Below are positions 1 to 36,325 of a DNA stretch of 64,000 nt, one piece after another. Numbering within the stretch: the stretch's first letter is position 1; every line of letters starts with the position of its first letter. The notes under the pieces were generated by a model. The model was not told the origin of the DNA, ran no database searches, and saw only the letters and a list, made by a program, of their open reading frames with translations. Where the stretch lies: positions 73,046,002 through 73,110,001 of the forward strand of contig OX439039.1 of assembly GCA_949317995.1 (NCBI GenBank), given 5' to 3'. The translations under genes and the position numbers were made by a program. This DNA comes from Acholoe squamosa (Eukaryota; Annelida; Polychaeta; Phyllodocida; Polynoidae).

Positions 1-1039
1 GTTTCAATTTACATGACATGCAAATAAAGTGCCCCAGACATGTTCTGATTTACGCATGTACAGTTGACCTAATTTGCCTTGTACAAAGATGTTTGCATAA
101 CACCACGTAAATTATATGCAGGTCATTTGAAACTAGCCATATTCAGAGTTCTTAACTTAGACTCTAGACGTTACTGTACTAGCATGATTAACCACAGTGC
201 CCAGCACAAGCACAAAGAGCTGTGCATTTAAAGTTTGCTTTGAAGCACTTGCAGCATCATTTACATCCAGTGTGCATCAGTTTGTAAGGCGCCTTACTGG
301 CTTGGGGAAGTTCTGTCCATTTATATATATTTGCTCCATTGTGCTGGTGATGGTTACTCAGTTTGCATTACAATATGTAACAATAAGATTCAAATATTGT
401 TGTCACTTCTGGAAATACATACCAAATTTTCCATAGGGCTTTCTTACTGAAAACGTTTGCCATTTCCAAATGCAATGAGCAACTACTCAGCTACTTAAGA
501 GCTGTTTACAGGTCATTTGTAGTTTTCTTTGTAGATCAGTAAATTATGAACATAAGATGAAATATTTTAACATTACTAGATTTTGTCAATAGGATTTCTA
601 TAGGGGTTGTATCTGAAACCCATTACAATACATGACAAGATACAGTTACGGCTGTACCTCTCAGTGGGCCGGGCTGAGGGTTACAGAGAGCGCTGTCAAT
701 TTCCCTCTGGTCTTGTAGATTTTAACTAATTGTTTGGCCTTGATAGGTATGGTCCACCTATGTCTAGTCCAAAGAAGGCACGCTACCAGTGGCTGTCTTG
801 ATTATGTGAGGTGAAATTGACAACTGGGTAACTAAAGCTATGGCTAGACCAATTAACAGTTTCACCCATCGGGGCAAAGGATCAAAGTGATCCAATGTGT
901 AGAATTGAAATACAATTTAGAAAATTATGAAGCTACATACAGAATTTGAGTTTAATCCATGCAGTATCAAGTTCATGGTAAGTAGAATACAAACAACCTC
1001 ATTTTCCCAAAGCTTTAAAACCTAAACCCACAACATCAG
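1..1039. other. no gene recognised
   Basis: AT-rich sequence with only short chance open frames. No splice-bounded exon, RNA gene or bounded transposon was recognised on either strand. Confidence 0.5.
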
Positions 1040-1984
1040 TACCCATGGGTATTGCAGGCTGAACTAGACAGGATAATACCTGTCTAATGTCAAAATGTAT
1101 GATTCAATACTGATCGCAAAAGTAACCTACATAATGAGACATCAACATTGCATATCTCTTGAAATGTAAAAGTATGTAACAAAGTATGTCTGGACCAAAA
1201 CTGCTGATTCTATCGCAGAGAGGAGTGTGTGACTTAAATAAAGACAACAATATGCGAATTATGCAAATGGGGCAGAAATTGGTCAAATCATGTAACGTTA
1301 CAAAAAGGGATTGTTAAAACACACATAGGGCTTGAAATAGTTCATTAATACAATAGAAAACTACACAAGTTAATGCCTGTTAGGTACTTAATGTATATTT
1401 CCATTGTTGTCATCTGACCTAGTTAAGGTAATAAAAACTGACCTGAAACATAAAAAGTTGGCATGGCATCAATCCTGAAATGTAAAAGTATATCATAAAG
1501 TATGTCTGGACCAAGACTGCTGATATTATCAGAAAAAGAAATATGTGACCTTTATTAATGACATAAATATGCAAATTATGCAAATGAGGTAGAAATAGGT
1601 CAAATCATGTAAATCTAGCAATAGGGATTATCAAAGCACAAATATAGCCAGCAATAGTTCATTAATACAATACAAAATGGCACAGGTCAATGCCTGTTTT
1701 CATTTGATCTAATTAATGTTGTCAAAACTGACCCCAAAAAAACAAAAAATAAACAGTATGGCACCCATCCTGAAATGAAAAAGTAATTATAAAGTATGTC
1801 TGGACCAGAACTGCTGATTTTGTCACAAAAAGAAAACTATGATCCATATTAGTTTTATTACATTATTAGGGACATATATGCAAATGAGGTAGAAATAGGT
1901 CAAATCATAAAATCATAGATAAATAAAACCATAGTGTTGTAGATTTTAATACAATAGTAGAGAATAGTCCTGTGAGATATGGCG
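1040..1984. repeat. degenerate tandem array, units about 295-316 bp
   Basis: The phrase AAGTATGTCTGGACCA recurs at 1182, 1498 and 1792, each time after a 'CCTGAAATG..AAAAGTA' context and followed by 'CTGCTGAT' and 'ATGCAAATTATGCAAATGAGG'-like text. Spacing is 316 and 294 bp. A fourth unit continues at about 3075-3260 (same phrase at 3211, GGCCCA variant) after an inserted block. Units have clearly diverged. No coding potential is seen. Confidence 0.75.
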
Positions 1985-3066
1985 CGGCGACTTGTAATCT
2001 TGTGTCTAGTTTCAGTTGGTGAGACAGATAGGGCATACTATCATCTGGGCTTTTGGTAGTATATAGCATAAATTCAACCTGAACTACCCACAGCAGCTAA
2101 GTACTAATAGTCTGTAGACTGTCCATTCTGCATGCACCTCACTCAGCTGCCACAGGGACCTGTCTTATTCAATGTTCAATGCCATAGTCAACAGGTGTGT
2201 CATTATGAGTGTACACTGTCTCAGATTGCCAGGAGCCTGCTCTGCCTGCCCACCCCCCCTCCCACACACACACACCCAACTGTCAATCACTTGTAATAGT
2301 CTGTACCTCATCACGGGCCAGTGGTCAGCAAACCGGCCAGATCACTCCACCTCTCTATAAAGGGGGAGCACAGTGTAAGTAACTCGGTGTACATACATGT
2401 TTTCAGTGTTCCACAAAATCGTTTATATAATGAAAGGAGTAATCAAATTAATCTTTCATCTTCAATAGTAGATACATATTCTGAGATAGCATTATTTCAA
2501 TGTAAACTAAAAATTTTACACAGAAAAGAATGTAGCAGTTCCACAAGGTGGCCTTACACTTCAACCTCCTCTGATTTACAAAAATGCACATAAAATTATG
2601 GCAACACACACTTTAGCACTGATTTCCCCATAGAGATCTTTGACAGTGAATACTTTGTTCAAATACAAAAAATATGATCCAATTGTACCATAACCCACTG
2701 AGATAAAACCTGTACTACATATATATAGTAGTTTCAAAACGAACAATTCTAAAACAAAGGCTACAGGGATGCATTTCTGAATCTTAAAATGCTCTAATGC
2801 TATCTGCCATAGGGCTCCAAATGATGAAATGTCTTATCTGCGAATAAAATCAAAAGTATGAGATATATTCTGAAAATTCCTTCACTGATAAGTAAAGTTC
2901 ACACACTGTTGTTATTACATTAGAATAGTGAGCAGGAATAGTCCATAGCAGAGGAGCCACAAACAAAAATAGATTGCAAGGCCTCCCTATCCTTTACACC
3001 GTGGCGACTGTGAACCATACACTAGTCTACTCATCTCACGAGTAGTACTCACTAGTCGCCGCGCTA
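1984..3066. mobile_element. possible inverted-repeat element inside the tandem array
   Basis: GCGCGGCGACTTGT near 1983-1996 is the reverse complement, with one mismatch, of ACTAGTCGCCGCGC near 3051-3064. The block separates the third and fourth array units, as an insertion would. No transposase was seen, and no clear target-site duplication could be fixed. Ends are approximate. Confidence 0.4.
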
Positions 3067-3260
3067 AAAACAAAATGACACAGGTTAATGTCAGTTAAAT
3101 ACTAATGTGTATTTCCATTTTTTTATTTGACCTAAATGAGGTCATCGAAAGTGACCAAAAAAATAGGAAATCACCATGGTACCCATCCTGAAATGAAAAA
3201 GTACATTACAAAGTATGTCTGGCCCAAATCTGTTGCTTCTATCACAAAAGGAACGATTAG
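3067..3260. repeat. fourth unit of the 1-kb-region tandem array
   Basis: It resumes with 'AAAATGACACAGGTTAATG', matching 'AAAATGGCACAGGTCAATG' at about 1674, and carries the AAGTATGTCTGG phrase at 3211. It is the downstream continuation of the array that starts near 1040. Confidence 0.65.
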
Positions 3261-4677
3261 AACTCTATTAGAATTTGAAAGAACCCTTATTCACGGGGTG
3301 AGGGTCAATGTAAATTCATGAAGCGAAGTTAGGGAAGACTTTTCAGTGTTCTACCGTTGTGGACCAGCTCCTTTCCCGTGTATTTATCCTTTATTTTATT
3401 TTTTTTGTGTGTGGGGGGGGGCTGGGCATGTCCTCTAATCTTTGTCCTTATACTGCCCGGCTGATATAGTCCCAGCTGATGTATAGTGATGCTACACAAT
3501 AGATAGACATATACAAAGGAGAGAAAAAAAAACTACCATAAACCACTAAGTACAAACTGCATAAGCCACACCCTAACTTTGGGAGAACATAAGCCACGCC
3601 TGAGGACATGAAAGGTTGCCATTTCCCAATTACTATAATAGTCTAACTATAATTTCGCATATAAGCCACTTCCTTGTTTCAGGAAGACTATAAAAAAAAG
3701 TATATTGTAGCCGCCTCTGAAACGGTGTATGAGCTGAAGCTTATATGCAGCATTTTACCATGTCTGAGTATAATGGAACCAGACCTATAGATGCAATCAA
3801 TGTGTCTCTGTAGGGGAGTCATTTTGGTAAAATGGGAGGATGATGGGATGGTCCAACGTGTTTCCTGGAGCATGTTGCTCCTATGGTAAAAAGAGCTTTT
3901 TAGTAGGTACCCTCTTTTCAAAAGAAGTCACGCTCTGCTTCACCATTCAACTTGCACTCACCACATTAGTCTGAAAAGTCACCTGCCTTGTTTAAAACAG
4001 AGCTGCACTATCAGGTACCTACTCATGTCACACACTCTATAGTATATTATACTGACTGACTTCTCCCAACTAGGTACCTACTCAAATCCCCTATTTTGAG
4101 CACCGTACTTGAATGTCCACTTGTGAGCAATAAAAGGGACAAGTCATAGCTACATGAAAAGAAAGGACTGGAAACAAGGGCATTTTTAGCCAGCTCTTCC
4201 TTTTACTATAGGAGCAACACCCTCCAGTCCTCTATGATTGTGCTATGTAATGAGAGACATTCTTTAAAGGTGAATATTGCATAAATGTATCATGCCCAAT
4301 TGGTCGTCATAATGTGTGAGTGCAACCCTGTAAGGATGGCATGCAATCATCATGCCGTAACTACTGGGTTTGTAAATGAGAAAGAATAAGAAAGAAAACC
4401 TGACCAAACCTCATAATAGTATGAACAAAAACCCCATATCCTACCTCATAGGCTTACATCAGACCAGTATGGTAGTGGGATAGGGGGTTGGTGGACCTCA
4501 ATTCAAAATTAAAAGTCACAAAAAACAATGATTAGGCGTTAGTGAACTGAAGCCAATGACCAAATGTGACTGGGTCCCCTGCCTCTCCCCCCAAAAAAAA
4601 GCCCAAGAAAAAAAGAACTTACAAGAGATATTCCACTTGATGTGCAACACGGTTGATACATGATTTGTTTAACTCAC
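3261..4677. other. no gene recognised
   Basis: Short fragments resembling the 'ATAAGCCAC' repeat class occur near 3560-3680. I see no exon, tRNA or bounded element in the rest. Confidence 0.45.
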
Positions 4678-4755
4678 CTGAACCGGTGTCTACCAATACC
4701 AGTGCCAGCTGAAGAATCCCACCTGAATGAAAAAGTGCATTTTGAAAAGGTGCAT
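4678..4755 (-). pseudogene. broken copy of the channel gene's first exon
   Basis: On the minus strand this aligns with the possible signal-peptide exon at 13097-13160. Both have ATGCACTTTT, then CTTCAGCTG-CACTG-TAT, then a GTTCAG|GT donor. The similarity extends upstream on both copies (about 4760-4915 versus 13161-13320), so promoter-side sequence was duplicated too. A 1-nt deletion shifts the ATG out of frame with the hydrophobic stretch (ILQLALVLVDTGS), and I found no in-frame replacement ATG. No transmembrane exons were found below 4.6 kb. It is probably a decayed tandem copy, though both could be fragments of one dispersed repeat. Confidence 0.5.
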
Positions 4756-4915
4756 TTTGAAGAAATCAGTGAAACTCGAGAGGATGGTCTCAAGTTTACT
4801 ATACGAAAATGTATTGGCCGCCTAGAACCAGAACTGGCTGTCTCCAATCCATCACAGTGTCCAGCTTTAGTGATGTTGTGGTACCAGTGGTATGTGTCAT
4901 AGCTTCACTACATAG

Positions 4916-5547
4916 GGTACATCGCCCCTGACTCGACCACTAGACCCCTTGGTACCTTATGTGGACAACTAATAGACCCTAAAAACTGTGTTTTATAAAT
5001 CCTTTATCCATAATCCTTGATACAGGAGTATAAGACCAAGTAATGGTGCATTGCATACCTGTTTTTTCTTAAAGTTATAAGTTATAGTACCTATTATACA
5101 GTGGTTAACATAATATGTTTTGTTTACTTTTTACCTAGAATGTGTGCTGGTGTTCAGAGAGTTGACCTCCTACTACCCCTTACTGTGGTTCCTAGTCATA
5201 ACACACATTCAAATTTATGATTGATTCCTTGTATGTACCTTCTGTCATATACAATACGAGGCTAGTTATACAATATATTCATTTATTTTATGTCATTTCA
5301 GGGATTTATTTCCACATAGTTAGTGGTACCCTATGTCAACCACCAACAGTGTGATGACTGAACCACTGAAAGTGTGTGGCAAATTATATACAAATCTATG
5401 TAGTTACAGGCCCACTCAGGCAGAACACCACTGACCTATTATTATCAGTACCTTTCTACACATGCAAACAGTTAAGGTAAGAGTGGTTGAGTCATGGTAC
5501 CAACTCTAGTCTAACATGGCTGGCAATTTTGATAGGCATGTTCTGCC
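4916..5547. other. no gene recognised
   Basis: No coding exon, repeat boundary or RNA structure was recognised between the broken first exon and the MITE at 5551. Confidence 0.4.
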
Positions 5548-5550
5548 TAA

Positions 5551-6178
5551 AGGCGAAATCCCACTACATGAAAAATGGGTCTGAAATGTCTGTGATTCTA
5601 GATATCAGCAACATTGGACTCTTGCCAATTTCCTAAATCACAAGGGTACTCACTGCACTTCTTACCACTCCAAATCCGACTATAGCTGATAGTAGCAGGG
5701 GAATCTCTGTGATTTTCATTACTGCATTGATGAGTTGCTAAAATGATTCACAGAGATAGAGTATTTGATATTAAAATCACAGTTGTCTCTGACTATTTTC
5801 TATGGTTTGCAATGGTCTCCTGCATAGCATAAACAAATGTAGCTTGCATAAATCACAAGCAGAACCCCATTATGATTGTAGTATATGGAACTTGGCTCCT
5901 GATTTATCAAAGACACACCTCTTCTGATTTCCTAGAACTGTTGTTTTCCTCTAAATCACAGGGATTTTGAGTCTATCACAGAGATTTCAAGCCCTTTGTG
6001 AAGAAAATATCAAAAAGTTTTGATGTACTATACTTCCTAAATACCAGCACTATGACAGGGATTCTTAGCCTTTATAGGTCTTCCCTAGACAATATTACCA
6101 CCCCAATATCAGCTAAGCACCCACATATCCTATTTCACAACGATTTCCTGACCATTTTCACGTTGTGGGATTTGGCCT
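5551..6178 (+). mobile_element. Harbinger-like MITE, copy A (628 bp)
   Basis: The terminal inverted repeats are AGGCGAAATCCCACTACATG on the left and, read inwards from the right, AGGCCAAATCCCACAACGTG. Both ends are flanked by TAA (5548-5550 and 6179-6181), a 3-bp TWA-type target duplication typical of PIF/Harbinger elements. No transposase is encoded, so it is non-autonomous. It is an inverted near-duplicate of 10044-10670 (627 bp). The short open frame at its 3' end is a shadow of the repeat. The superfamily is inferred from target-site size and sequence. Confidence 0.88.
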
Positions 6179-6181
6179 TAA

Positions 6182-7775
6182 TATGATATCTAAATATGAA
6201 ATGTTACATATGGATTGTAACCTCAATGATGCCACCAATGGTATCAAGTAGTGATGAGGTCAGTTGAGGTTTCCTTCTACATGAAATATCTTGGCAAAGT
6301 CAATGCCATATGGTATTTTAGAGAGAAGTCAAGTGGTAGAGTCAGGGGCGACTTACCCTGGGTACTGACCGTGAGCCGACCATGTATCTTGAAAACTACA
6401 CCCCATCTTATTGCCCATTCAAATCAGCGTGGTGCTGTGAAAGTTGGATGACATGCATTGGTTCAACCAGTTTGCTATGTTTATACAGTTCCAAACTGAC
6501 TCAAATGGCCGATAAGTGGGGTGGACCTACCACGGTGTGTGGTTGGCTCAAGGCTAATCTGCCTTACTAGAGAGCACCAGTGTCATGTTTATAGAGGGTT
6601 GAAGAAACCGGTGGTCTTCATACTCTGACATCCTGTACCATATACACGGGAAAGGAACACCCGAATTGACCCCTCCTCTCCCACCAATCCTCTCTCAATG
6701 AACAATAAATGCCACCTCTGGAGGGGACTTCTCAAGATGGACTGTACACAGCCACCAAGATTTGAAACCCTCGAAATCAGAGTGGTTGATCATAGGTAGT
6801 GCTCTATGACTGCCCTGTACAATCAGGACTTGTTGTCGTAATTACATAGCATTTGGTAGGGCAGCAGTTGTGTCAGTAAAATCATTAGTAACCACTAGGT
6901 GTTTTAATGTAATGGTCTTAGAGTAAGGGATCCTACTACGATTCCAATGGGCCTAATCGAACCATCTTGAAAAACGACTTCTTGTCATGCTTGTTTCAAT
7001 TTCAAGGAAGGTTACAGGGACTTGATGATGTATTTGCACAACAACAATGTAGTTTTTATGAAAAATGGTTAATTATCAGTGCAAGTATGTTCGCTAGTAT
7101 TATATATGTGTATGCCTCACAAACATCTGTACCATAAAAGTTGTACAACATTACTTACCTACATTTTCCCTGTATCAGGTTTGATTATGTATGAATTTCC
7201 AAATCTTTACTTGATGTATACATTCAGGGCAGGAATAATCTACCAGAATCACTAAGTCATGGGTTGGTATAATTATTGTGTACCTTTCTTGAATGTCATA
7301 GATACATAAAGAGTGAGCAATAGTCTTTTTATTGCCAAAATACCTCAGTTCACTCCTGTAAAATAATAATGCCTTCTATGACTCCTCATAAAGTGAGAAT
7401 ATGCAAGTGAATACTCAATTTTGGCTATTTCTGCCAAGCCTGGAGTGGATTCGACTCTCCCTGTCGATTAAAACTCTTTCAAAACTAATTATGAGACAAA
7501 ATGACCAAAGAATTTTCAATCATAATGTTGCTGAACATCGAAACACATGGTTACGTCATTAAGCAATATACTTAAAGAACACCATGGCAATACTTCTTTT
7601 TTTTAATCACTCACAATAACAATACAGGAAATGCTGTGGTCTAGCCAATCAATTTCCGATGGAGCATCCTTGTGGAATATTGTTCCTGGATATTGAGGAA
7701 ACACGTTGACCTGCATAAAAAGAACATAGTGAGAGCAAACTACAACAAGAATCAATTATGAGGTGCTAGAGAAAC
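6182..7775. other. no gene recognised; one diverged dispersed repeat
   Basis: About 6785-6945 resembles 60235-60395: both carry 'TGTACAATCAG', 'TAATTACATAG', 'AGGGCAG' and 'TTAGAGT.AGGGAT' in the same order. Nothing coding was identified in the remainder. Confidence 0.45.
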
Positions 7776-7777
7776 TA

Positions 7778-9946
7778 CCCAGCAAATTGGAGTCAGTGTG
7801 AGTCATAATGAGCTGCTATGTGTGAGCACCTTTCGGGTTATAACACCAGTGCGACAGCTCATGTCACAAGATGTCAATACTCACACTGTTTGACTCATTA
7901 TGACACTTAGTGACTCATCTCCACAAGACATAATGTGGCACAAGTGTGAGCATGTGTCAGTCTGTGTCAGTAGTCACACAGTGTGACACATAGTGACTCA
8001 TTTCCTAACCCATTTGAGCTAACATTGCGTCAGTATGTGCCAGTATGGGTGAGTAGTCACAGGGATTGACGCATAGTGACTCATTTCCTTATTTGCGTGA
8101 GGTGACACTGAGTGAGCATGAGCCAGTCTGTGTGAGTAGTCACACGGACTGACCCATAGTGACTCATCTTTCAAAAGATAGGTATTGACACTTGAGTGAA
8201 CATGGGTCACTATGTGTCAGTACTCACCCGCAGTGACTCAAAATGGCATCAGTGTCAGTATGAAGAGACTGGGAAAATTGTATAGTTCCACTATATACTT
8301 GCACTTTGGGTTTGGGCCAAATTAGGGAATTGCTGTTTCTATTGATGCTGCCTTATAAATCAAAGTGTTTATAGATGATATCTATCAATATGTATATAGG
8401 GAATATAATGGTGACTGAAAACATGGGTTTATATTCTCTTTTGGTGTATTTTAAGACAATTTTCTTTGTCTATGGGAGATAACACTGAGTTTCAATTATC
8501 AACCTCCTATGTGGTATTCAGGCTTACATTAGTCTTGGTGTAGTAATTCCTTGAAAGTATGGTGCATGCTGCCCAAGGTGATGCCATATTACCATGGGAA
8601 ACAGGTAAGAATTCATAATATGAGGTGAATTATAATGTTGTTTTGGGTGATAATAGGAGGAAAGTGCCTCACTTCAACAAACACAACAGGTTCTGACACA
8701 TGCGTCAGTATGCGTCACTATGTGTCAATACTCACACATATTCACACACCTTGACTCACAGTGACCCATCCTGAAATTTTCTCTCCAGGAAGTACCTGAC
8801 ACATGTGTGACCATGCATCAGTGCTGCGTCAGTATTGTGTCTGATTGGTTGATTTCAAACTCCTGGTCCCTCATTGGTCCATTTCAAAGTTCCCGCTCTT
8901 TTCTTGGTTTCTTTGTTCTCAGTATTTCACAACACACAGACACAGAACAGCAAGGAGAGAAGACAAGGTGGGTAATCCTACAGTCCTACAGAACTCCAAG
9001 TAACCTACAGTAATATATCATGGTATCTTCTTTTGTGCCCACTTTAATCTTTAGAGTCTCTTACAGTCAGTATTGATACAGTTGATATAGCATATGTCAG
9101 TAACTTGCAGGTTTGGGGGCCTGGGAGAGTGGTGGACTAGGTTGTGGTCAGTTTGAGGGGCAAGAATTTTATTTTTGTTTCGGGGGGGGGGGGGGGGATT
9201 TTGTCTCCAAATAATTTTATCTTCCCCTGCCCCCATTAAAGGTCAGCTCATTCAGGGAGAGGGTATGTACTTGGCTCAGGGGAAAATTCTAGCCCCCCCC
9301 TCCAAAATGATAATATCTCACAACATATTTTGGAGGGAGGGGAGGAGGTGAGGAGGGTAAAAAATCTTGTGCTGATTATATTAAAGGTATTTGTGTAATG
9401 CATTATTGAACTTAAATGTTTAATTTTTATTTGACAGGCACAAAGAAGGTATTTTGAGGAATGGAAAAAGTGAACAAAGGAATCTACAGGAAACCCTTCC
9501 ATGGACATAGATATGCAGCTCAATTGATGACATTGATTCAGAATAAAAATGAATGCAGAATAAAGTCATACCCCAACCCCCCCCCTCCCCCAATCCCTAT
9601 CCCAGGGGAAAAAACCTGACGCATTTGTCAGGATGAGTCAGTATGTGTTATAGCCCAGGTGTCAGTATGAGTGTGCATGTGCCATGACACACATGTCAGG
9701 CCTGAGTCAATATGCGTTATAGCTCAGGTGTTAGTATGAGTGTTGATTTGCCATGACGCATGTGTCAGGCCTGAGTCAGTATGTGTTATAGCCCAGGTGT
9801 CAGTATGGGTTTGCATGTGCCATGACACATGTGTCAGCATGCGTCAGTATGGGTCATCAGTCACACCTGGTGGCGCATTTTTTTTCTATACAGCACCAGT
9901 GTGAGTACTCACACACAGTGACTCAGAATGACACCAATTTGCTGGG
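7778..9946. mobile_element. 2.17-kb inverted-repeat element rich in GTGACTCA motifs
   Basis: The ends are CCCAGCAAATTGGAGTCA (left) and TGACACCAATTTGCTGGG (right), inverted repeats with one mismatch, flanked by TA on both sides (7776-7777 and 9947-9948). Three internal blocks (about 7790-8260, 8690-8840 and 9610-9930) stutter through variants of GTCAGTATGTGTCAGTACTCACAC and TAGTGACTCAT on both strands. No transposase was recognised, so it is probably non-autonomous. A TA duplication would fit a mariner-like mover, but the TIR is not one I recognise. Poly-G and poly-C tracts lie near 9180 and 9580. Confidence 0.75.
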
Positions 9947-9949
9947 TAA

Positions 9950-11052
9950 AGGCCAAATCCCACAATGCGAAAATGACAATAGAATCCTTGTGATTTATGC
10001 ATGCAGTGTTCCTTAGCCAATATTGGAGGGTAATATTGTCTAAAGGCCAAATCCCACAATGTGAAAATGGTCAGGAAATCGTCGGGAAATAGGATATGTG
10101 GGTGCTTAGCCGATATTGAGGTGGTAATATCGTCTAAGTAAGACCTATAAAGGCTAAGAATCCCTGTCAAAGTGCTGGTATTTAGGGAGTGTAGTACATC
10201 AAATGCTTTTGATATTTTCTTCACAAAGGGCTTGAAATTTCTGTGATAGACTCAAAATCCCTGTGGTTAAGAGGAAAACAACAGTTTCTAGGAAATCAGA
10301 AGAGGTGTGTCTTTGATAAATCAGGGGCCAAGTTCCACATACTACAGTCATAATGGGGTTCTGCTTGTGATTTATACAAGCTACATTTGTTTATGCTATG
10401 CAGGAGACCATTGCAAACCACAGAAAATAGTCAGACAACTGTGATTTTAATATCAAATACTCTATCTCTGTGAATCATTCTAGCAACTCATCTGTGCAGT
10501 AATGAAAATCACAGAGATTCCCCTGCTACTATCAGCTATAATCAGATTTGGAGTGGTAAGAAGTGCAGTGAGTACCCTTGTGATTTAGGAAATTGGCAAG
10601 AGTCCAATGTTGCCGATATCCAGAATCACAGACATTTCAGACCCATTCTTCACGTAGTGGGATTTGGCCTTAAAGGAGGACTATAACGGCTGAGAAGCCT
10701 TGCCAAAGTCTTGATTTTTATAGAGTAGAACATATAAAATATTTTTGATATTTTCTTCAGAAATTGAATTTGTCTGAGGTCATGATTTACCAGCAAAGAG
10801 ATGTATTTCACAATGCTTTACTGCCCAATAACAGCAATTGAATCAAAATCACAGAGATCCAGCGGTCAAAAGCAGCAATAGAATCAAAATCACAGAGATG
10901 TACTGCCCAATATTGGCTAGCGGTGGGAATTAGAGTAGGGAGTAGTGGGGTGAGAACCCTTGTGATTTAGGAAATTGACAAGAGTCCATGACTGCCTATG
11001 TCCAGAATCACAGACATGTCAGACCCATTTTTCACGTAGTGGGATTTGCCCT
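9950..11052. mobile_element. outer Harbinger-like MITE, split by a nested copy
   Basis: The left part (9950-10043) begins AGGCCAAATCCCACAATG. The right part (10674-11052) ends CACGTAGTGGGATTTGCCCT. TAA flanks both outer ends (9947-9949 and 11053-11055). Copy B sits between them with its own TAA duplication. Removing it joins 'GGTAATATTGTC' to 'GGAGGACTATAACGGCTGAG', which matches the contiguous interior of the full-length copies. Without the insert the element is about 473 bp, so it also has internal deletions. Its right end overlaps the 3' end of the ion-channel frame (stop at 11032-11034). Confidence 0.85.
10044..10670 (-). mobile_element. Harbinger-like MITE, copy B (627 bp), nested
   Basis: It has TAA at 10041-10043 and 10671-10673, with TIRs AGGCCAAATCCCACAATG and CGTAGTGGGATTTGGCCT. 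It is the reverse-oriented near-duplicate of copy A, about 4.5 kb away. It inserted into an older member of its own family, so it is the younger element. There is no transposase. Confidence 0.88.
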
Positions 11053-11435
11053 TAACACTATTTCAGATATTGCTGCAATCATAAATAAACAGAAAAGGAT
11101 CCTGTCAGCAGCAGACATAATCTTCCTCCAACCACTCTCTGCACTGGTCTGATGATGTCGGGAAATCACCTGCACACAATCATCTGGAGTTGACACACCA
11201 ATTTTATCCTTCCCAATCTGAATGTTTTCAGTCTTATCTTAAATCCTATTTTCTGGATAGCCTGGCCTTCTTTGTGGACATCTTGAAAACGATGAAGACT
11301 CGATACCCTTGGCAATCTTTAGCAGCCAAGGTGGTGGGGTACCAAATTGAGACAGCCGGTAGTGGGTGTGAATTATGAAGACTGACCACATTATGGCAAC
11401 CATTGTCAAGGACATGTTGATAAGGAAGAGGATTG
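11032..11435 (-). CDS. channel exon: TM3, intracellular loop, TM4, stop
   Basis: The acceptor CTGTCTAG precedes 11435. The split codon joins T from the previous exon to CA, giving PLIS then ILFLINMSLTMVAIMWSVFI (TM3). HTHYRLSQFGTPPPWLLKIA follows, like the HHR..PPW segment after TM3 in nicotinic receptors. The same frame continues past one TAA (11239-11241) into GWRKIMSAADRILFCLF, the MA-helix/TM4 signature, and stops at TGA 11032-11034. A GT-AG intron at 11184-11306 (123 nt; donor AAGG|GTATCG, acceptor ACTCCAG|AT) would remove the TAA and keep phase, but its donor is weak. The loop is about 75 residues unspliced and about 35 if spliced. The last codons (ANPTT) and the stop fall in a MITE end. 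Confidence 0.78.
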
Positions 11436-11645
11436 CTAGACAGTTGGGAAAAAAAGTAAATTGCAAATCAGAATGAACAGTTGTGATAAAAGGAAACTTG
11501 GTAGGCCTACATATCATATCAAGGTTTTTAGGCATGTGCTTAATATTTATTGAGAAATAATAATAATATGAGTGTTCTTTAGATGAGATTCTATTTGATA
11601 TGGAAGTCAATTATGATTAGACAAAGCAAGACATCTCACACTTAC

Positions 11646-11985
11646 ATATAAGAGGCAAAACCATTGTTGATTCTGGTATTTTGTCTGCCATCATCATGAT
11701 GAAGACAGAGTAGGCAAGGAATGATGTCAGTCCAAGTGAAACTCGTTCACGTTCCTCCGGAGGTAGGAAAAAGCTACACGAGATGATCATATTCAAGATC
11801 ATGAATGGTAAGATGAGGAAGGTTAAGTGGAAAAGGGGTTTACGTTCAAGAGATAAGGTGAAGACCTGATAACTGTAGTTAGTCAGTGGTAGACTGTGCT
11901 CATACAGATATATAAGTTCTTTACCAGTGAGGTCCAGTATAGGGTAAAGGCACCCTGAGTCAGACAGATACCTATAGTCGGACAC
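11646..11985 (-). CDS. channel exon: pre-TM1, TM1, TM2
   Basis: The 3' boundary is CTTATAT|GTAAGT. The 5' acceptor is uncertain; candidates are CTATAG at about 11972 and GACTCAG further in. The protein runs from the last extracellular strands (ILDLTGKELIYLYEH) through YQVFTLSLERKPLFHLTF to TM1, a short FFLPPEERER linker, and TM2 (VSLGLTSFLAYSVFIMMM) ending ADKIPESTMVLPLI. This matches the R+PLF, VSLG, IP.ST..VPLI pattern of nicotinic subunits. The vicinal CC pair of alpha subunits is absent before TM1, so it resembles a non-alpha subunit. Confidence 0.82.
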
Positions 11986-12559
11986 CTTTTGGATTGGATT
12001 ACATAATGAATAGGATGGTTTCAGCTTTCATATGAAGTAGACATGAAAACTGAGGTATCATACTCTCTAACAAATACAGCATAACAAATACAGGTCCCTT
12101 CCTACATAGTTTTACAACTGTGCAAACCCAGGGTGTTTCTGTTATATTTTGATGAAAAAGAATGGTGAGTAAAAGGAAAACCTGGTTTGATTCATCAATC
12201 TGTTGTGTCTTCACAGGAATGTTCATATAATCTATCTATATATCATTGAAAACATGTACAATCGGACACCAATTACACCCAGTCCTGGACACAATTATAT
12301 CATGATTCATAAACTTTTACAATGGACATTTCATCACAATGAGAAACTCTTGTAATATACCTTTACTCTCATATATGGATATTTAATCTGTATTTGTTTT
12401 CCCCCCTATCAAAATTAGCATAGCTAAAACCAACAGAATAAATCTACCTGAATCTAAGTAAATCAACTCCTCCAGCGTGTGAAATTAGTTTTATATTCAA
12501 GGGCAGTCACCCCACTATCAATCCCCGAAAAAATCAATCGATCCCATGTATTGATGGAA

Positions 12560-12675
12560 ATTCACCTTTACTTGACCGTAACAATTTCACCATAGGACGA
12601 ATATCGCAATATTGTGGCTGGTAGTTATATGAGGACAAGCTATAATCAGCATACCTCTCAATACATCTTGTAGGC
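12560..12675 (-). pseudogene. weak candidate remnant of the channel's ligand-binding N-terminus
   Basis: An acceptor TTATAG|GC at 12675 would continue the phase of the signal exon and give LQDVLRGML before a stop. A second frame over the same bases reads SSYNYQPQYCDIRPMVKLL, recalling the 'NYNP..RPV' start of nicotinic receptors, and ends at AAAG|GTGAAT. The two halves are in different frames, so this is either a frameshifted exon or coincidence. Confidence 0.22.
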
Positions 12676-12815
12676 CTATAATACAAGTCTGTGTAAAACC
12701 AATTAAACCACAGTGGGCACTGAGAACAATGGATTTCACACCTGTTATATATTGCATACAGACTGAGGTTTAAGCTGGTTATTATACTTGGACAGTATTG
12801 AAAGGGGTGTACAGC

Positions 12816-12982
12816 TATTCAGAGGTAGCAGGTTGTCCCATGGGCGCCGCCATTGCGGGAGCTTGTTACCAGCGATTTCTACTGATAAGACCTATCCGAT
12901 GGGTACCAGTTGGCCCCCAAAGGACCGCAGTGAATAGATTCGAGTTTTCTCATTGGCTAATAAGTAAACCTGCTAAGCCCCT
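12816..12982. mobile_element. truncated copy of the 34.8-kb foldback element
   Basis: It begins TATTCAGAGGTAGCAGG and matches the left arm of 34794-35082 through GTTGTCCCATGGGCGC, GCTTGTTACCAGCG and TCATTGGCTAATAA to AAACCTGCTAAG. The right arm is missing. It lies within the channel locus. Confidence 0.75.
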
Positions 12983-13096
12983 TGTGTTATATATCGCTTA
13001 CAATACTGTCCTCGTACAATAACCCCTACATATCTTAAGAATTACAACATCCAATCAAATAATGATTTACTTGACAATATTATGTGTTGAACTTAC

Positions 13097-13160
13097 CTGA
13101 AACATTCTGTATCCATAGCAGTGACAGCTGAAGAGTCCAAGCCAGAATACAAAAGTGCAT
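13097..13160 (-). CDS. possible signal-peptide exon of the channel gene
   Basis: ATG at 13160 opens 21 codons, MHFCILAWTLQLSLLWIQNV then S. A hydrophobic core gives a plausible signal peptide. The exon ends TTTCAG|GTAAGTTC, a strong donor, in phase 1. It lies 1.1 kb upstream of the transmembrane exons on the same strand, where a receptor's first exon would be. The diverged copy at 4678-4755, donor included, shows this segment was duplicated. Its membership in the channel gene is inferred from position only. Confidence 0.45.
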
Positions 13161-13320
13161 TTTGACAAAAATCAGTGAACCTCAATTGTTTGGAGATTAC
13201 TGCACGAAAATATGTTATCCACCCCGAACCAGCACCGACTGTCCTTCGTCAACCTCAGTGCCCAGCTTAAGTTAAGTACCTGTGGTGTGTTGGAGCTACT
13301 GAATATACTAGGGATGTATT

Positions 13321-14223
13321 CAATATAACTGACGATCTTAGAAATCATTGACGATCAGGTGATCTTACTGGTGGTGCCTGCTGTCATTAGTTTTCCTACC
13401 ATGAATGGGAATTATATCTTGATCAAGCAAGGTTTGGCAGAGCAGTCGTAGCACTTCAGGCAGAAATAGATGTCACTGTGAGTGGCACATACCATAGATT
13501 CTCGCGTAAAAGCCGCAGCTAGTACGAGTACCAGAACAATGTGGGTGAAGGGAGGCTGGGGGTAGGGTTTAGATCTGACACCCGACTCCCTGACACACAA
13601 CCAATGCCTGCTATTTTCCCAAGCGTTCCAGGGTGCAGGGTTTATAATCCCTCACGACAGCATAGGCCTCATATACTTAATATACCATTATGTTGTCGTC
13701 AGGGATGTTAAAATAGACCCCTGGGGATCAATACACACGATACTTTAACTACCCAGCCTCCATTACTGCCGTGTGAGGCACTCTACTGAATGATGCCATT
13801 ACAGATCTACATTTAATAGTGGCCACTTCTTACACCCCTGCGGTTGCTCTACAAAGCCATAAAGGCATAAGGCTCAAGCTTAGAGTACAGGGTAATAAGG
13901 GTAGCTTGGAGGAAATCAGTTCAAGATTACCCCTGCACTATTTACATGCACTGAATATGATGGGCCCATATTGAATTGCGAGCCACTTTATCGCATACTG
14001 TTGGCATATATATATCTATTGCAAATGTTCTTGCTCCATACTTTTTCTGTCCCATGTTGATGAAACCGGAGAGTAGTGCGGGTATTTTTATAGATTCATA
14101 GACCTAAATCTTCCTGTTCCTATTAGTATTTTATGCTACACAATTAGGGAACTTTTCTTCTTCGATCTGGTGGTGAAGGATATGACAGTTTCTGCTGCCT
14201 TCAAATAGATTTTATTTAAGATG
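13321..14223. other. no gene recognised between channel and COG1 loci
   Basis: Neither strand shows a splice-bounded exon that I can place, and there is no tRNA-like or tandem structure. Confidence 0.45.
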
Positions 14224-14599
14224 TTAAAGTGGCATAGTCCGATGGTTGGGGCCAAAAAATCAATCTTCTCAAAAATGACACAGGATGTTCACATAGATCA
14301 AACTTCCTATGGGACCTACTTCATTTGCTCTCCTTTCTCATAATTCAGCTTATATTTGAAAGAATTGTTAGATTTATACCCTATTTCCTACTTTTGGAGT
14401 GCACACCAAAACTCCATCCATTGGAAATACACTGTAAAATGCCTATGGGAAGGCCCATGGGACCCCCTTTCTAAACGTGTATGAGCTAAAGATAACAATA
14501 AAATGGTCTCCAAATGCCTAAATATGGTGTTATTACATTGTGTAGAATACATTTGAACAGGATTTGAAAAATGAAAAAAATCGGACTATGTCACTTTAA
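14224..14599. mobile_element. TTAA-flanked MITE
   Basis: The element spans 14228-14595. Its ends AGTGGCATAGTCCGAT and ATCGGACTATGTCACT are inverted repeats with one mismatch, flanked by TTAA at 14224-14227 and 14596-14599. A TTAA duplication fits piggyBac-like or Kolobok-like movers. There is no transposase. It lies just past the likely 3' end of COG1. Confidence 0.88.
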
Positions 14600-14633
14600 A
14601 GAATCAAAGTGCTTCCAGTTGATTGTATAGACA

Positions 14634-14639
14634 TTTATT
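14634..14639 (-). terminator. candidate COG1 polyadenylation signal (distal)
   Basis: AATAAA on the minus strand, 415 nt after the COG1 stop and 35 bp before the TTAA-flanked MITE is reached. Confidence 0.4.
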
Positions 14640-14736
14640 CAATACTTATAATTACATGTGTATTGAGAGGGAGAAGTTTTACATCCATCTAAAGTACAAT
14701 CACCGATATCCAAATGCCTTCTTCAAAATTCAACAA

Positions 14737-14742
14737 TTTATT
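14737..14742 (-). terminator. candidate COG1 polyadenylation signal (proximal)
   Basis: AATAAA on the minus strand, about 312 nt after the COG1 stop. The sequence alone does not show which of the two signals is used. Confidence 0.45.
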
Positions 14743-15054
14743 TTGTGCCCTCATACCAAAACATACCATCTGTACATCACCATTTAACACATAACTTTAG
14801 GTGTTGATTGTAGTAGTCAAATAATATACATAACAAGAATGCAGAACCAGAATATTAATCCCAGTGCTGCATTTGTGCATCATGCTGAAAAAGGCTTTAA
14901 GTTACTAAGCTTCCCTTGAAGGGTTAAATCTCGGTATGTCTGTGTTACATAGGCTCAGTTAAGGTTTAATTATCACAGTGCTATCATATTACAGCCCCTA
15001 TATGTTCCATCAGCGTGCCAACTTATTCCAGCTTCTATACCCTCTATGACAATC

Positions 15055-17899
15055 TCACTTCTTGGAGACATTACTGAACCACAGCGTACTCATGTTAGCC
15101 AGGAAACTACTCGATTCATTACGCGGCATCGACACCTGAACCGGAGCCTCCGTCGTCTCTGTGGGTGACTGTAAGATAATAAAAAATAATGTTATCACAA
15201 GTGGCATTTTAGGATATTTTTAAAAGTCTATAGTCAAATCATGTTGAAAGGGCTCCAAAGTAGGCATCTACAAGTCATCATGTCATTAAAACTGTCCATT
15301 GTCTCAAAAAGATAGATAGTGGTTCACAAGAATCTATCTATCCTGAAAGGTGGCCATGGGCCAAATTTGTCAAGGCAGAGCAAGCGGAATGTCGCCCAAG
15401 GACCAAGGATTTTCATGTTATGTCTGGATTCATCTCTTTGCTGATATCACAGGAAGGAATAAAGCTATAAACAAAAAAAAATCCAATTTCAAACTAGTTC
15501 AATGTTTCCCGAACAATAAAAACACTAACCCTAATGAACCCTAAAGGATCAGTAAGAGGTGCCTCAGGGATACAAGTTTATTTTGAACATCAAGTAGAAA
15601 ACTAGATCAGATTAGATGACAAAGGCTTATTTGGTACTGGATCAGCCCATAAATATAAATCGAGAAACTAAAAGGGATCTTAGCTAGGGACCTCCCTTTC
15701 AGCTTATTGATCTACAAATATCAAATATCAAAGAAACGCCCCACCAGTGTCCCCACCATTTTTTTCTGACATTTGAACCGACTTTTAGCTGATTTTAAAT
15801 AACATTTAATGAATCTAGGGCTCACAAAAAAATTCATCCACTTCCGAGCAAGGTTGAAAAGAGAATATTAGACGAAATCTTAACAATCCCTGTCAGTCAA
15901 TCACTTTGTTGACCCTCTAAAATAGTCAAAATATTTATAAAAACTGACATTACCTTGGGTTTAGGTGGTTGCATGATGGGTGGTGCCATGGAGGGCCTGT
16001 TCTGGACGCTGAGCGGGAGGAGCGGGAGGCGCGTCTGTGAGCTGCTCAACATGAGCACATTGTGCTGCTCCTGCTGACTCGTCGCGGCTGGCCGCGTCCC
16101 CAGGAACACACCGTGCTTATCTAGACTCATCAACAGCCCCAACAATACCTGTAAGAAGGGAACGAATGGGTTATAGGACACCTTGATGGCTTAAGGTCCT
16201 TTATGTTTTGTAGGTAGAAAACCTTATGAGCTATTTTTTTCAAATGCTCATAAACCATAAACTAATGCATATAAGCTGTGGCTTTATGACACAAGTTACA
16301 ATATTCATTACAATTTGTCGGTATTTACCCCTACAGAAGTACACTTCCAATTTCCAAGCCCGAGATGCAGCTTCTAGCATTGTTCTGAACTCAAGGTGTG
16401 GCTTATACATGAGTACAGCTTTAAAGCTGGAGTTTATGGTTAATATATAAAACCTGATATGAGATACTTACACTAAAGCGCTGTGACTGCCGAGCGATGT
16501 GGGTGTTCATGTATGGCGTGAACACATCAAGGTCAAACGGGTCAACGTGACCTTCTAGTATGTCAATGACCTTCTGTATTCTCTTTTGGTAAACCTTGTT
16601 TTCCTGTTATCAAAAAATAACTCCATAATCAGCACATAATCAGAGTGGATATTCATTAGGGCCTACAAAACTGAACTTTCCTGCTAAATGTCTTATTAGT
16701 TTATATACGTATCTGTAATAGGCAGTCTTTACCCTTCCCCCGAATGAGCCACACCACGAGGCATATCTGCCAACACCTACACAGAATTCCATTGTATCCT
16801 ACTTAATATAAAAAATTACTTGTAGTGTTTACAATAATTTCACATACCTTGGTGTCGTCCTTTCGGGGTAGTACGTTGACCAGGAGTCTAACATCAAAGC
16901 ACAGTTGGAGTGCCTGACCTTGGTTCATGGGAAGCACACCGCTCCCTTCCTCGTCCCGTCCTGCCGCTTTCTTTGGACGCCGACACAGTTCCTCGTAGGA
17001 ACCGATGATACTGTCAGACATCTGCTGTACTAAGCCAGTCAGGATTGACCTGGATAAATATATACAGATTACTAGTACATGTATACAGATTTATAGGTTA
17101 CATCGTGACAAACATGCAAGCTCAGTATGAGTATATATATTTGATTGATTGATTTGTTTAACATCCAGAAGTGGGATCCCCACTTCATGGGACTGCCTCA
17201 TTAGTTTACTGACATTCAGTCCTTTCTTTCTCAGTCTGGGCAGATTTATTTAAAAGCTGCTTGTCCAAAACAGCTTGACAGGTATTTGATTAATTTTTTC
17301 AAATTCTCTACACTTACATACTGATAAACTACTGATTTCTATACATTCATTCTCATTGGTGTATCAGAGATGCCACTCACTGGCCGACAAAAACCAGGAA
17401 AATTGGACTTTGGACACATTTCCCCAGGAATTTAACATAATTTAATACAGAAATCCCGTGAATCAAAACCAGGAACTCCTGGTAAACCAGGACAAGTGGC
17501 ATCTCTGGTTTATGAACCGTACCCTGATTTTGTAAAGAAGATAAAATTTGCTCTTGTGGTTAAAGAAAATTTTTCATTCCTTATATTCTATATTTACGTG
17601 ACACGCCTTGTATTAATAAACCAGTAGAGGGTTTAGGTGACCATATTACTCACAGTAGGCCTCTGAAATAGCATAAACTATAGGTTATATCATGGAGGTA
17701 CAGTTCAATGGATATATATAGGATTCTGTGGTAATAAGACATACTTATTGATCGTGTGGCCGCCAACCCGGTTAATCTGCTGACAAAGGCTGTACAACAA
17801 AGATGTCACATAGCTTGATGTGTGTGTCGGGACTCGGATTTTAGATGTCATCTTCTTTCCATCCTCTGTCTCCTCCTCAATGTCAATCTCTCCCCATCG
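15055..17899 (-). CDS. COG1: COG1 exons 21-25 (C-terminal region)
   Basis: Exons are 17745-17899, 16848-17049, 16472-16603, 15954-16148 and 15055-15168 (residues 683-947). Exon 21 has KMTSKIRVP and LCQQINRVGGH. Exon 22 has MNQGQALQLCFDVRLLVNVL. Exon 23 has DPFDLDVFTPYMN. Exon 24 has NVLMLSSSQTRLPLLPLS. Exon 25 ends SSFLANMSTLWFSNVSKK then TGA at 15055-15057. This is the best-conserved part next to the N-terminus. Confidence 0.95.
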
Positions 17900-20800
17900 C
17901 TGAAGCAGTAAATATTTTTATCTTTAAGAACTGCTTAATGGATTCATTTGCCCCCTATATGCAATACAGAAATAAATAATCATCTACCGGTACTCAAGGA
18001 TCCCAATATGCATTATATTAAGGATTCAGATTCATTTGTCATCATGCAGTTCTAGTGAATAGTTATTTTGACCTTTGAGAACATGTTGAGTGAGTGAGTA
18101 ATGGTTGTTTAACACCAAGCCGACAGCTAAGGTCATATTCATGGCGGAAAAAGTACATCAGACATCACGTCACAAAGGAATACATGTGCCTGTGCCCGTG
18201 CATATGGACACCAGACACATGTAAGAAAGAGGGGACAGGAAAGAGGAGATTCAAGGAACGAATATGTGCCAGTGCCCGCGCATATGGACACCACCCACAC
18301 TCAGAGAGGATAGAAAAGCAAGACATAGACCCCTTTTAAAGATGGCCTGGGGCTGGGGAGGCCCGAGAGAACATGTTGACAGCATGAAGTCCACTCTACA
18401 TGATTCATGATGAATGTATCAACCATGAAGTTCAGCATGAAGCATGAATGCAGCATCTCATACAAAAAGGGGAAAATGGAAAAAAAATCAATTACGGTGC
18501 TGGCGCGGAGTATCGAGTGGCCACACTGTTCAAGTAGAGCCTCCTTGTACTGGTGACAGAGGTGGTTAGATGTGTGCTCGGCCCAACACCTGGAAGTGGA
18601 TGTGTCAGTGATGAAATTATTCCATGATCCTTTTAGCAACATTATATATGAAAAAAATATTCATCACCATCAGAGAGAGAAGATATTATGGTATGCATCA
18701 TGCTCACAAAGTGAACTAAAGTGACCAACATTGTACACTGCAGACGTGGGGATGGTGTATTATTATATTTGGATCTGATAGTTATATGTCACTGTTCAAA
18801 ATAGGACATACCCAAAGGCTTCATTACTGAAGTTATGAAGCTTGGACTTGACATTTGTCCAACGAGGGTCATCAGTGGGCTTAGCAGATGCCTTTCCTCC
18901 TGGTTGCCGCTTCCCACTTCTAAAAGACAAAGATGGGAATACAATTAAATTAGTGACTGGTCTGTGTTTGCTAATTCTGTATACCTTTAAAATATAACCT
19001 TCTTTTTTATGAGTGAATTAAGGTTGAATTTTGTGTTGTTATCTGCAAAATTATTTGTAGCAACCTTTAAGATTTCCATCAATTTTTAATAGTTTGAATC
19101 TCACATCCTCAGAAGTTTGAGTATTCGTGCTAAGTTTGTAAACTAAATTATAATGTCGGAGATCTAACTTTACCTGGTGGGTTCCACTTTTTCAGTTGTT
19201 CCCATCATGCATTTTTGGAAATGCACGCTGAGTTCACAGAGAGCACCACTTAACCGTCCCAGTAGCAGAATCCTGGAATGGAAATAAATCTCAAAGATTT
19301 TAAAATACCATGTATTTCTTGATCCTCTTGATTGCTCAATATTGCGTCATCACTTCTTGACAAACAAATTGGGAGACTGGACTGTAGTCAATTGAGTGCA
19401 TTTAGATGGATACCGTAAACTCTTACATATAAGCCGCGATTTATGCATACTCGATAATATGGGAGGATGTGTGCACGCAGACATGACGCCATCCGTCTCG
19501 CCGAATGTTACCAGCCTGACACAACACCTCTGTTGTTCATTTCGGGACAAAGCGGCGCCCGTGATCTGTGCTAAGAGATTGGCACCGCGTTCACTGGGAA
19601 GGGTGATTGGCATGTAAATTTTATCACCATACGGGCACCGACTTTCACGCACCACATGTCCTGTGTCCTCGCTATATATCCTCTACTGCATGTGGGGTGT
19701 GACATATATACATGTGCATCATTATATCAAGCCCACAAACTCAGGATGCGGCTTACACAATGTATTTCACAGTAACTTACCTGTCCAGGATGAGAAGTTT
19801 GGTGGCATGGTCTGCAGTCTTGTCCAGCTCCTCGCGGCACACATTGAGTTGTCCCTGCAGGAACTCCAGTAACCTATCGACACATTGGCATCAGGGTTAT
19901 GAAAATCATTATTGAAATACATTTCAAACGGCATTTTTAAGCCAAATTACCCTTGGGCTCTGTGAACATGTGGGATGGTGGGACACTTGTATGCAACTGG
20001 TGAGGTGATGTTTCCTTTCTTCTATTATAATTTTGAGAACATCACATTTTACCCTTTAGCCTTAGGAAATTACTTGCAAATCAGACATTTACTATTATTG
20101 AATTCGAAAACTTGGATCAGGTTATTAGATACTTTTTTCTTTGTTTCCTCTAATTTGAATACTTAGAGAAGATACTTACTGAATGATGGAGGATTCACAT
20201 GACTCCTGCAGGAAGGCCAGTATAACCGGTGTGTCAGCATACAGGTCAAACGGGCCCTTAGTCTCCACAGCCCCCGGCTTCAGGTAGTGCCCCGCATCCT
20301 CCACCAATGTACGCAACTTACCGTCAAACCCTCTACACAAACTGCAAGACAAATGACATTGAACTTAGAGCTAAAATGTCTTTTTATCCAACATATCCCT
20401 GAGAACTGAGGTAGTGACGTGGCCTTGTACTTACAATTCTCAAATGAAAATATTTTGCCCATATATGGTTCTTGACAGTTTAAATGACAGATGCAAAAAT
20501 CTGCCTATACCCTACCTTTGTATGGCTGGAGTGTATGCCTTGGCTTTCATAGACAGCGTTCCTGTGTCGGCAAGTGTCTTAGACCCGACGGTCACCCATG
20601 CCATATTGGTAGGCATGTCGGTCGCGCTCTCCACCCATACGTATCCTGCCACATCACGCTCCACAGCCACTGACCTGAAGCCACAATTAGGATAACCATT
20701 ATACACATAGTTTCATTTTGGTTAGGTAAGACTCATCAAGCTGAAATTATGTCATATATATCAAAGTAATTTACTCACAATGGACATTCAATATATAAGT

Positions 20801-34793: not shown

Positions 34794-35082
34794 TATTCCG
34801 AGGTAGCAGGTTGTCCCATGGGCGCGGCCATTGCTGGAGCTTGTTACCAGCGGGGCCAACTGGTTCCCATCCGCAGTGAATAGATTGGAGTTCTCTCATT
34901 GGCTAATAATTAAACCTGCTAAGTCCGTATACGGACTTAGCAGGTCTAATTCACTGCGGTCTATTCACTGCGGTCCTTCAGGGGCCAACTGGTTCCCATC
35001 TGATAGGTGTTATCAGTAGAACTCGCTGGTAACAAGGTCCAGCAATGGCCGCGCCCATGGGACAACCTGCTACCTTGGAATA
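34794..35082. mobile_element. 289-bp foldback element with a perfect central palindrome
   Basis: Arms of about 55 bp starting TATTCC(G/A)AGGTAGCAGG are near-perfect inverted repeats. A 30-bp perfect palindrome lies at 34915-34944, centred on GTATAC. The phrase GGGGCCAACTGGTTCCCATC occurs in both halves as a direct repeat. Related copies lie at 12816-12982 and about 49875-50091. No protein is encoded. Confidence 0.85.
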
Positions 35083-36325
35083 GGAGCCTAGACCTAGACG
35101 TAGTGGGTCCATTATTTTGAATTTCGCTGGTTATACCAAAGGTGGCAATACACACTGATAAGGCATTGTCATGATGGGTACTTTATCCCTGGAAGTGGAT
35201 GTTATCCAAGGACATGTTGATTGTCATCTTATCAGCTTATCAATGCATGCCGCCAGAACCAGCTCCACTCCCGCCTACACCCAATACCTACCAGTTTGCT
35301 ATTTAAAGCACATCAGGATGTAATTTTATCATGTTGCCGGGTCCTGCACCTCACAAATCGTCCATACTTTAGCTACCTACTAGTTGGTGTAGATCGTAGT
35401 GTACATGTATGTGAATAGATTATTATTTTCATTGGGGGATATGGGCCTGTAGGCTATGCCGATATATGTAACTGTTCTTTTCAAAAATGTGTTCAATTTT
35501 GCACATAAGTATTGGGCCTATAATTCATAAATAACCTATAGAGATGATATTTCACACCGGTCCACAATAATATTTTGCAAAATGATAGGTAGCATGCAGT
35601 TGAAAATGTCTCAGGTATATTTCTCGAGGCCTATTCATACTTGGGTGTAAGCCTACTTTGTTTATATTTGATTTTAATGTGCTTTGAATTGTACATGTAG
35701 CAAAAGAGACTTTTGGAGTATGTCTAGCCTCGAGTGAGCAACTTCATTGCACCAAATTCACAGTGCAGCCCTAATGATACTGGGGCCTAGCATTAATTAT
35801 ATGAATTGTTTCTTGAGGCTTCCCCAGCAACGTCAATACACAGGTTGGACGTCATGGTTGCCATGGAGCTCATAGTAACAGTCATATGAATGATGTGAGT
35901 CATCCCAAATTGAAAGGGGGGGGGGGGTGATTGCTCAATACCTGGAGGGCCCATCCCCTTTCACCAGCCCGAGATTGCGCAATAACTATGGTTATAATAG
36001 ATATCCACTTTCTTTATGAATATTCCATTCGCATATGCCAATTATGTATGCAAAGTGCCAGAATATAGTATCTGTATGCAGATACTGGTGGCAGATTAGT
36101 GGAAATTGTGGTTGCATTGAGCAAAGTGTGACATTACCCGGTCTGTGGCGGGAATTGGGAGTGGAAATCTCCACTGCGGAGGTACAAAAGCACCTGTCAC
36201 ATCCGGGTACCTGCAGAAGAAAATGGGCCACGAGACATGCGCTCTGCACACCACAACAGACACTGTGATAGATTGAGTGGACCGTATCGAAATAACCTTT
36301 TATTGTGCTGATCCGAATTAGTTTT
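35083..36325. other. intergenic plus probable NEDD4-like 5'UTR/promoter
   Basis: Up to about 36100 nothing was recognised apart from a poly-G run near 35919. About 36120-36290 is less AT-rich, with CpG-containing stretches (ACCCGGTCTGTGGCGGGAATTG), and precedes the first coding exon, so it may hold the promoter or 5'UTR. No TATA box position is convincing. Confidence 0.35.

Follow-up and report, generated by a model that had tools for sequence, protein, structure and literature searches.

The nicotinic-receptor-like gene on the minus strand of the window (the 64,000-nucleotide stretch analysed here, 73046002-73110001 of contig C5 in a genome of 1.48 Gb and 63 contigs) is very probably a decaying tandem copy, recently lost, the last exon of which contains nested DNA transposons. 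Most likely, an ordinary copy of the gene is dying here, and no new tail has been gained. A Cys-loop channel gene with introns points to an animal as the source. In the last turns of M4, a TAA-targeting MITE, which contains a nested MITE, and a TA-targeting element with terminal inverted repeats (TIRs) lie side by side at a single TTA codon. These insertions have pushed the apparent original last seven residues and stop codon to 7775-7752, and the M4 frame now closes within MITE sequence. Translation is predicted to end at a TAA codon, 28 residues past the PPPW tryptophan behind M3; neither M4 nor the MITE-coded tail would be made, and a full channel subunit would no longer be produced.

The 5′ part of the gene model is a signal-peptide-like exon (13097..13160, minus strand; MHFCILAWTLQLSLLWIQNVS-G, donor CAG/GTAAGT), assigned to the gene by DNA similarity only; related stretches are present at 4660-4842 (probably belonging to P1, see below) and at L007:5218-5275 (probably P2). 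The second part is a remnant of exon B encoding the pre-M1 region, M1 and M2 (11646..11954, minus strand; donor TAT/GTAAGT), of which the start, 11954, is only a proposed acceptor. This remnant matches PF02932 (E 9e-9) and a nAChR beta subunit in the PDB (E 5.1e-15). The last exon (11056..11435, minus strand; acceptor ...CCCAACTGTCTAG) covers M3, the M3-M4 loop and M4 up to ...SEIV. In the copy as a whole, the Neur_chan_memb profile PF02932 scores 52 bits against a cut-off of 28.1, and the match stops after M3. The identity of M4 is supported better by paralog DNA than by the PDB search. Over 73-75 bp, the M4 DNA is 91% (75 bp), 88% and 86% identical to P3, P4 and P2, respectively; the match to P5 covers 44 bp (77% identity) and that to P1 only 20 bp. 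A 49-residue M4 piece, a query that included the recovered tail described below (the PDB alignments stop short of that tail), retrieved nAChR alpha as the first six of seven matches with E values of 0.47-3.1, which are not significant. Within the longer protein, M4 falls outside the Pfam match, and each of the five displayed alignments gains between -1.1 and 3.1 bits from it.

Sequence similarity places the window gene in a tandem array of channel genes of the Cys-loop (nicotinic-receptor-like) type. The last-exon query matched itself (the window copy, L001) and at least five further places on the same contig and the same strand, within about 83 kb; the paralog counts are lower bounds given that only the best candidates were scored, and L011 contains no family match. 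Paralogs P1-P4 encode, according to tblastn, exon A of the ligand-binding domain (LBD) and an exon B that comprises the Cys-loop half, M1 and M2; LBD profile matches were found in P3 and P4, the two paralogs that were profile-scanned. Several members of the array carry damage of their own. The body of P1 (L007:6205-6331, C5 about 73042706) sits immediately outside the window, ahead of its first base; its LBD exons and M1-M3 are open and its frame stops at the beginning of M4, after SAADM; the remainder of this M4 was sought in L007 and was not found, and P1 is a second M4 loss in the same array. The stretch at 4660-4842 of the window is a first-exon copy, 68% identical to 13079-13243 and probably the first exon of P1; from the first ATG, its frame (read by eye) gives MHLFKMHFFIQVGFFSWHWYW and then a stop. 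Exon B of P2 (L007:2590-3113) matches the others in two frames, switching just before M1, and a frameshift at this point is therefore probable. P5 (L010 about 2223-2631) contains several in-frame stops and is another dead copy, for which neither M1-M2 nor the LBD was found in L010.

In the window copy, an in-frame TAA (11239..11241, minus strand) lies between M3 and M4 at a place where P1-P4 are open; in all four of these paralogs the M3-M4 loop is open and has no intron. An unspliced reading accordingly stops ahead of M4 and of the MITE codons, and the open frame through M4 that a Cys-loop subunit should possess is interrupted. The other defining feature of such subunits, a ligand-binding domain with the Cys-loop, was found in P1-P4 and not in the window copy. 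Here, blastn picks up homology to paralog exon B from 11941 onward only, and tblastn from 11946, which indicates that the Cys-loop half of the LBD is missing. When the paralogs' exon A and the portion of their exon B that encodes the Cys-loop were compared with the window, no match better than E 1.6 was obtained. An LBD located further upstream was considered and rejected: the read-through Pfam scans of the minus strand (11035-27001) yielded none and one sub-threshold VPS51 match, and the PDB scans upstream to 17036 yielded none and one chance nanobody match (E 0.089).

These findings bear on the two fates that the first-pass annotation had offered for the gene, exonisation or the scar of gene death. 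Gene death is the better option, whereas exonisation is unsupported given the upstream TAA, which the annotation had overlooked while reading the last M4-frame codons correctly, and given that the Cys-loop half was not found. True exonisation would imply expression of the gene, loss of the TAA through a small intron or a polymorphism, and a channel that ends in MITE-coded RANPTT. The M4 frame is indeed open into the MITE, the stretch examined contains 24 frame-preserving GT-AG pairs (>=40 nt) that enclose the TAA, and deletions of 1-11 residues at the M4 end are tolerated in the human muscle nAChR alpha subunit (PMC5832824). However, the best of the six candidate donors agrees with five of nine consensus positions, compared with 7 and 9 for the donors of the gene model (hand count), and P1-P4 carry an open exon across the stretch that contains the TAA. 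An intron removing the TAA, with such weak splice sites only, was accordingly rejected. The frame that enters the MITE starts after the TAA and is thus not continuous with the rest of the gene. Together with the missing Cys-loop half, these observations make exonisation highly improbable.

The MITE at the M4 end is itself genuine. The minus-strand M4 frame translates as ADRILFCLFMIAAISEIV-L-RANPTT-stop and closes with the letters GAA ATA GTG TTA AGG GCA AAT CCC ACT ACG TGA. The last seven codons, from AGG to TGA (11032..11052, with the TGA at 11034-11032), are the terminal repeat of the outer MITE, the end of which, AGGGCAAATCCCACTACGTG, occupies 11052-11033 of the minus strand. The TTA (Leu) codon preceding them is the gene-side target-site duplication (11053..11055, TAA on the forward strand). 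In letters and frame, this agrees with what had been proposed from the first reading of the sequence, namely that the frame ends ...EIVL-RANPTT-stop in a MITE terminal repeat (11052-11032), with the TAA duplication directly upstream in frame. The attribution of these codons to an outer Harbinger-like element likewise stands. This outer element (9950..11052, flanked by TAA at 9947-9949 and 11053-11055) consists of about 473 bp of its own sequence and a nested insert, the inner MITE (10044..10670, flanked by TAA at 10041-10043 and 10671-10673). An independent copy of the inner MITE is present in the opposite orientation at 5551..6178 (flanking TAA at 5548-5550 and 6179-6181) and shows 94.5% identity to it over 631 bp. 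Pieces of the outer and inner elements align at 73-79%, which identifies the outer MITE, at the level of sequence similarity, as a diverged relative of the inner one. A TIR pattern allowing <=3 mismatches, composed once the ends were visible and hence partly post hoc, had six matches in the window, compared with a mean of 0.19 and a maximum of 2 in 100 shuffles; the six ends form three element pairs, with TAA at both flanks in 3/3. The TIRs are complementary at 82% over 28 nt in the outer element and at 91% over 23 nt in the inner one.

The target preference of PIF/Harbinger elements is TAA/TWA. The elements described here possess the corresponding 3-bp TAA (TWA) duplication and terminal inverted repeats, and the longest listed frame in the MITE region is <=121 codons. 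With the TAA duplication, TIRs and a size of about 470-630 bp, they resemble PIF/Harbinger MITEs, for which 3-bp target-site duplications and TIRs of 25-50 bp have been described (PMC9179366). An exact TIR scan of the viral contigs and genome contigs gave 0 matches, and a search for relatives in the viral contigs gave 24 pattern matches with 0 confirmed; in L007-L011 and the first 6000 bases of the window, the only copy of the MITE or the TIR element was the one at 5551-6178, which is the window's own.

The first-pass annotation saw the MITE end correctly and overlooked a second TIR element abutting the MITE. This element (7778..9946, 2169 bp, ends CCCAGCAAATTGGNGTCA) is bounded by a TA duplication (7776-7777 and 9947-9948), the right copy of which falls within the left TAA of the MITE. 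The inverted arms, 7776-7805 and 9919-9948, are 30 nt long including the TA and 90% complementary. The end pattern, which was taken from the ends themselves, has two matches in the window, exactly these two ends, with 0.20 expected. A TA duplication combined with TIRs fits a Tc1/mariner-like element, these features being not unique to Tc1/mariner; a Pfam scan of the minus strand of 1-9902, which bears on a DDE/D transposase for this element on that strand, gave no match. Arrays of imperfect repeats with units of about 83 nt and 69 nt are found near both ends of the element, and its core is largely non-repetitive.

The two elements share one TTA codon and together insert 3277 bp. Insertion of the MITE first and insertion of the TA element first give the identical final structure, so that the order of insertion is not readable. 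Because both elements have matching duplications at each side, the gene flanks are expected to be contiguous once the elements are taken out. The predicted empty site is a TTA directly joined to GTTTCTCTAGCACCTCATAATTGA. With both elements and one TAA excised, the sequence runs ...GAA ATA GTG TTA GTT TCT CTA GCA CCT CAT AAT TGA, and the joined flanks translate as ...SEIVLVSLAPHN followed by a stop (that is, ...SEIVL-VSLAPHN-TGA). The last eight codons of this frame, VSLAPHN-stop, are now located at 7752..7775 (7775-7752 on the minus strand), 3.28 kb from M4. The original ending of the gene, as reconstructed in this manner, is displaced and still present beyond the second element. The earlier proposal that the transposon replaced the ancestral C-terminus just after TM4 fails in both of its parts: the last eight codons survive, and in length, final N and stop they match two of the five tandem paralogs; and the insertion lies inside the last turns of M4, the two intact paralogs, P3 and P4, carrying about four further hydrophobic residues.

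The tails of the paralogs are as follows. P3 (L008) ends in SEIVLIFLVSAN and P4 (L009) in SEIALIFLSSAN, each with seven residues after the L, a final N and TGA. The decayed P5 (L010) reads SEMV-stop-IFVASTN-stop, which fits the seven-residue length, and the tail of P2 (L007) is longer, SEIVSVLIIAVYDSGSGTQAGYIVL followed by a stop. Thus, two of the five paralogs are intact and matching, one decayed paralog fits, and two (P1 and P2) do not. The recovered tail is identical to those of P3 and P4 at 15 and 16 of 27 bases, respectively. Among 2693 TTA sites of the window (both strands) used as a control, 2 match the tails of P3 and P4 as well as the joined flank does, and neither of these 2 is followed by seven sense codons and a stop, a pattern that on its own occurs at 105 of the 2693 sites. 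Hydropathy and stop position alone are equalled at 45 of 1318 minus-strand TTA sites (3.4%), and by this measure the displaced-tail reading appears weaker than by base similarity to the paralogs.

The limited base identity to P3 and P4 and the frequency of equally hydrophobic tails (45/1318) also speak for the alternative that an insertion combined with a deletion truly replaced the C-terminus, with the VSLAPHN reading a coincidence; so does the distal flank, 7000-7775, where comparison with the paralog loci gave a single chance match of 14 bases. This alternative is nevertheless extremely unlikely, given the matching duplications that flank each element and given that the length, final N and TGA of the tail are as in P3 and P4, with 0 of 2693 control sites combining equal similarity with seven sense codons and a stop. 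As another candidate for the old C-terminus, the sequence beside the MITE, from 9946 downwards, was rejected; it would read PSKLVSF-stop and is the end of another TIR element.

The decay of the window copy seems to be recent. The dN/dS ratio of M1-M3 to P1, the nearest paralog, is 0.158 (129 codons). When changes were assigned to lineages by the majority of the three outgroups P2-P4 (with about 15 codons of P2 out of frame), the window lineage received 15 nonsynonymous and 20 synonymous changes and P1 received 9 and 8, 13 being unassignable; the departure from neutrality is significant for both (binomial p 1.3e-5 and p 0.025, respectively). By these counts, M1-M3 have been subject to purifying selection, so that the decay looks recent: the damage looks recent relative to the duplication, or else part of the gene is still selected. 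Furthermore, M4 has kept 86-91% DNA identity to P2-P4, which makes the TAA look young.

The constraint on M1-M3 counts against the decay reading; it fits a recent death and also fits a retained short product. Such a product would be a short living protein of 189 codons, consisting of the signal peptide, the pre-M1 region and M1-M3, with neither the LBD core nor M4, and it could perhaps act as a regulatory or dominant-negative subunit. The phase 1 donor of the signal exon fits an acceptor-like CTGACTCAG, also in phase 1, just before 11954, which links this exon to the remnant of exon B in one frame that stays open up to the TAA, and P1, the nearest paralog, is likewise devoid of most of M4. However, the acceptor is a consensus-like match a short way beyond the edge of the homology (11941), all of the constraint may predate the loss, and the similarity of the M4 DNA to that of P2-P4 points to a young stop. 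We consider this protein very unlikely, and equally so the fuller reading that the copy was reshaped into a selected 189-residue signal-peptide and M1-M3 protein in which the transposons fixed the loss of M4; were that reading true, the ending of P1 after SAADM would be a parallel step. The product of CHRFAM7A, dup-alpha7, retains M1-M4, and the window copy differs from it in that M4 is also cut off. As a nAChR copy that lacks part of the ligand-binding domain, dup-alpha7 is a distant precedent for truncated subunits and a model for the short protein considered here, although its described origin is the fusion of a partial duplication with another gene (PMC8196834, PMC7949125). The decay reading, which we prefer, must also accommodate other observations that count against it, namely the two of five paralogs that lack the seven-residue tail, the identity of just 15-16 of 27 tail bases and the insignificant PDB matches of M4.

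The insertions need not have been the cause of death. In the human muscle nAChR alpha subunit, the deletions of 1-11 residues from the M4 end that are tolerated are accompanied by a progressive drop in surface expression, the 11-residue deletion causing an about 3-fold loss of function, and removal of the last 12 residues of M4 abolishes surface expression (PMC5832824); conflicting results between expression systems on the need for the M4 end have been reported (PMC9116227). By analogy, the MITE insertion alone might have been survivable, whereas survival of a stop before M4 combined with the loss of the LBD core would not be expected, and the MITE is thus not necessarily what killed the gene.

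Comparable insertions are known from other systems. The miniature element Mariam, located in a 5-formyltetrahydrofolate gene of wheat (exon 6), resembles the MITE at the M4 end in that it adds a stop inside a coding exon and gives a shortened, altered C-terminus, which is a prediction there too; the differences are that Mariam is described as devoid of TIRs, whereas the window gene has TIR/TAA MITEs, a stop ahead of the insertion and a second transposable element in the same place (PMC6824096). Exon 4 of Xenopus dm-W, the coding sequence of which is derived from a hAT-10 transposon, similarly represents non-coding transposon DNA turned into last-exon coding sequence; that exon is reported to act in DNA-binding and transfection assays, whereas here the frame is blocked upstream and is known as a sequence reading only (PMC9250109). 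Transposons in a decaying tandem copy are ordinary in kind, and this instance is unusually well documented via the paralogs and the paired duplications. It appears to be a clean case of a tandem channel-gene copy dying: two independent target duplications allow the site to be reconstructed as it was before the insertions, and intact neighbouring genes of that genome serve as a check on the result. A frame that enters a transposon does not by itself show that a protein has gained a new tail; the remaining gene has to be checked as well.

Two further repeats were observed in the window. A dispersed repeat of about 165 bp at 12815-12977 has copies at 34960-35083, 34794-34926, 49946-50087 and L007:1551-1713. 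On the minus strand, two near-identical open frames of 90 codons (EITENRSSGVSALERFMRN...), at 62343-62612 and 63249-63518, form a direct duplication with a spacing of 906 bp.
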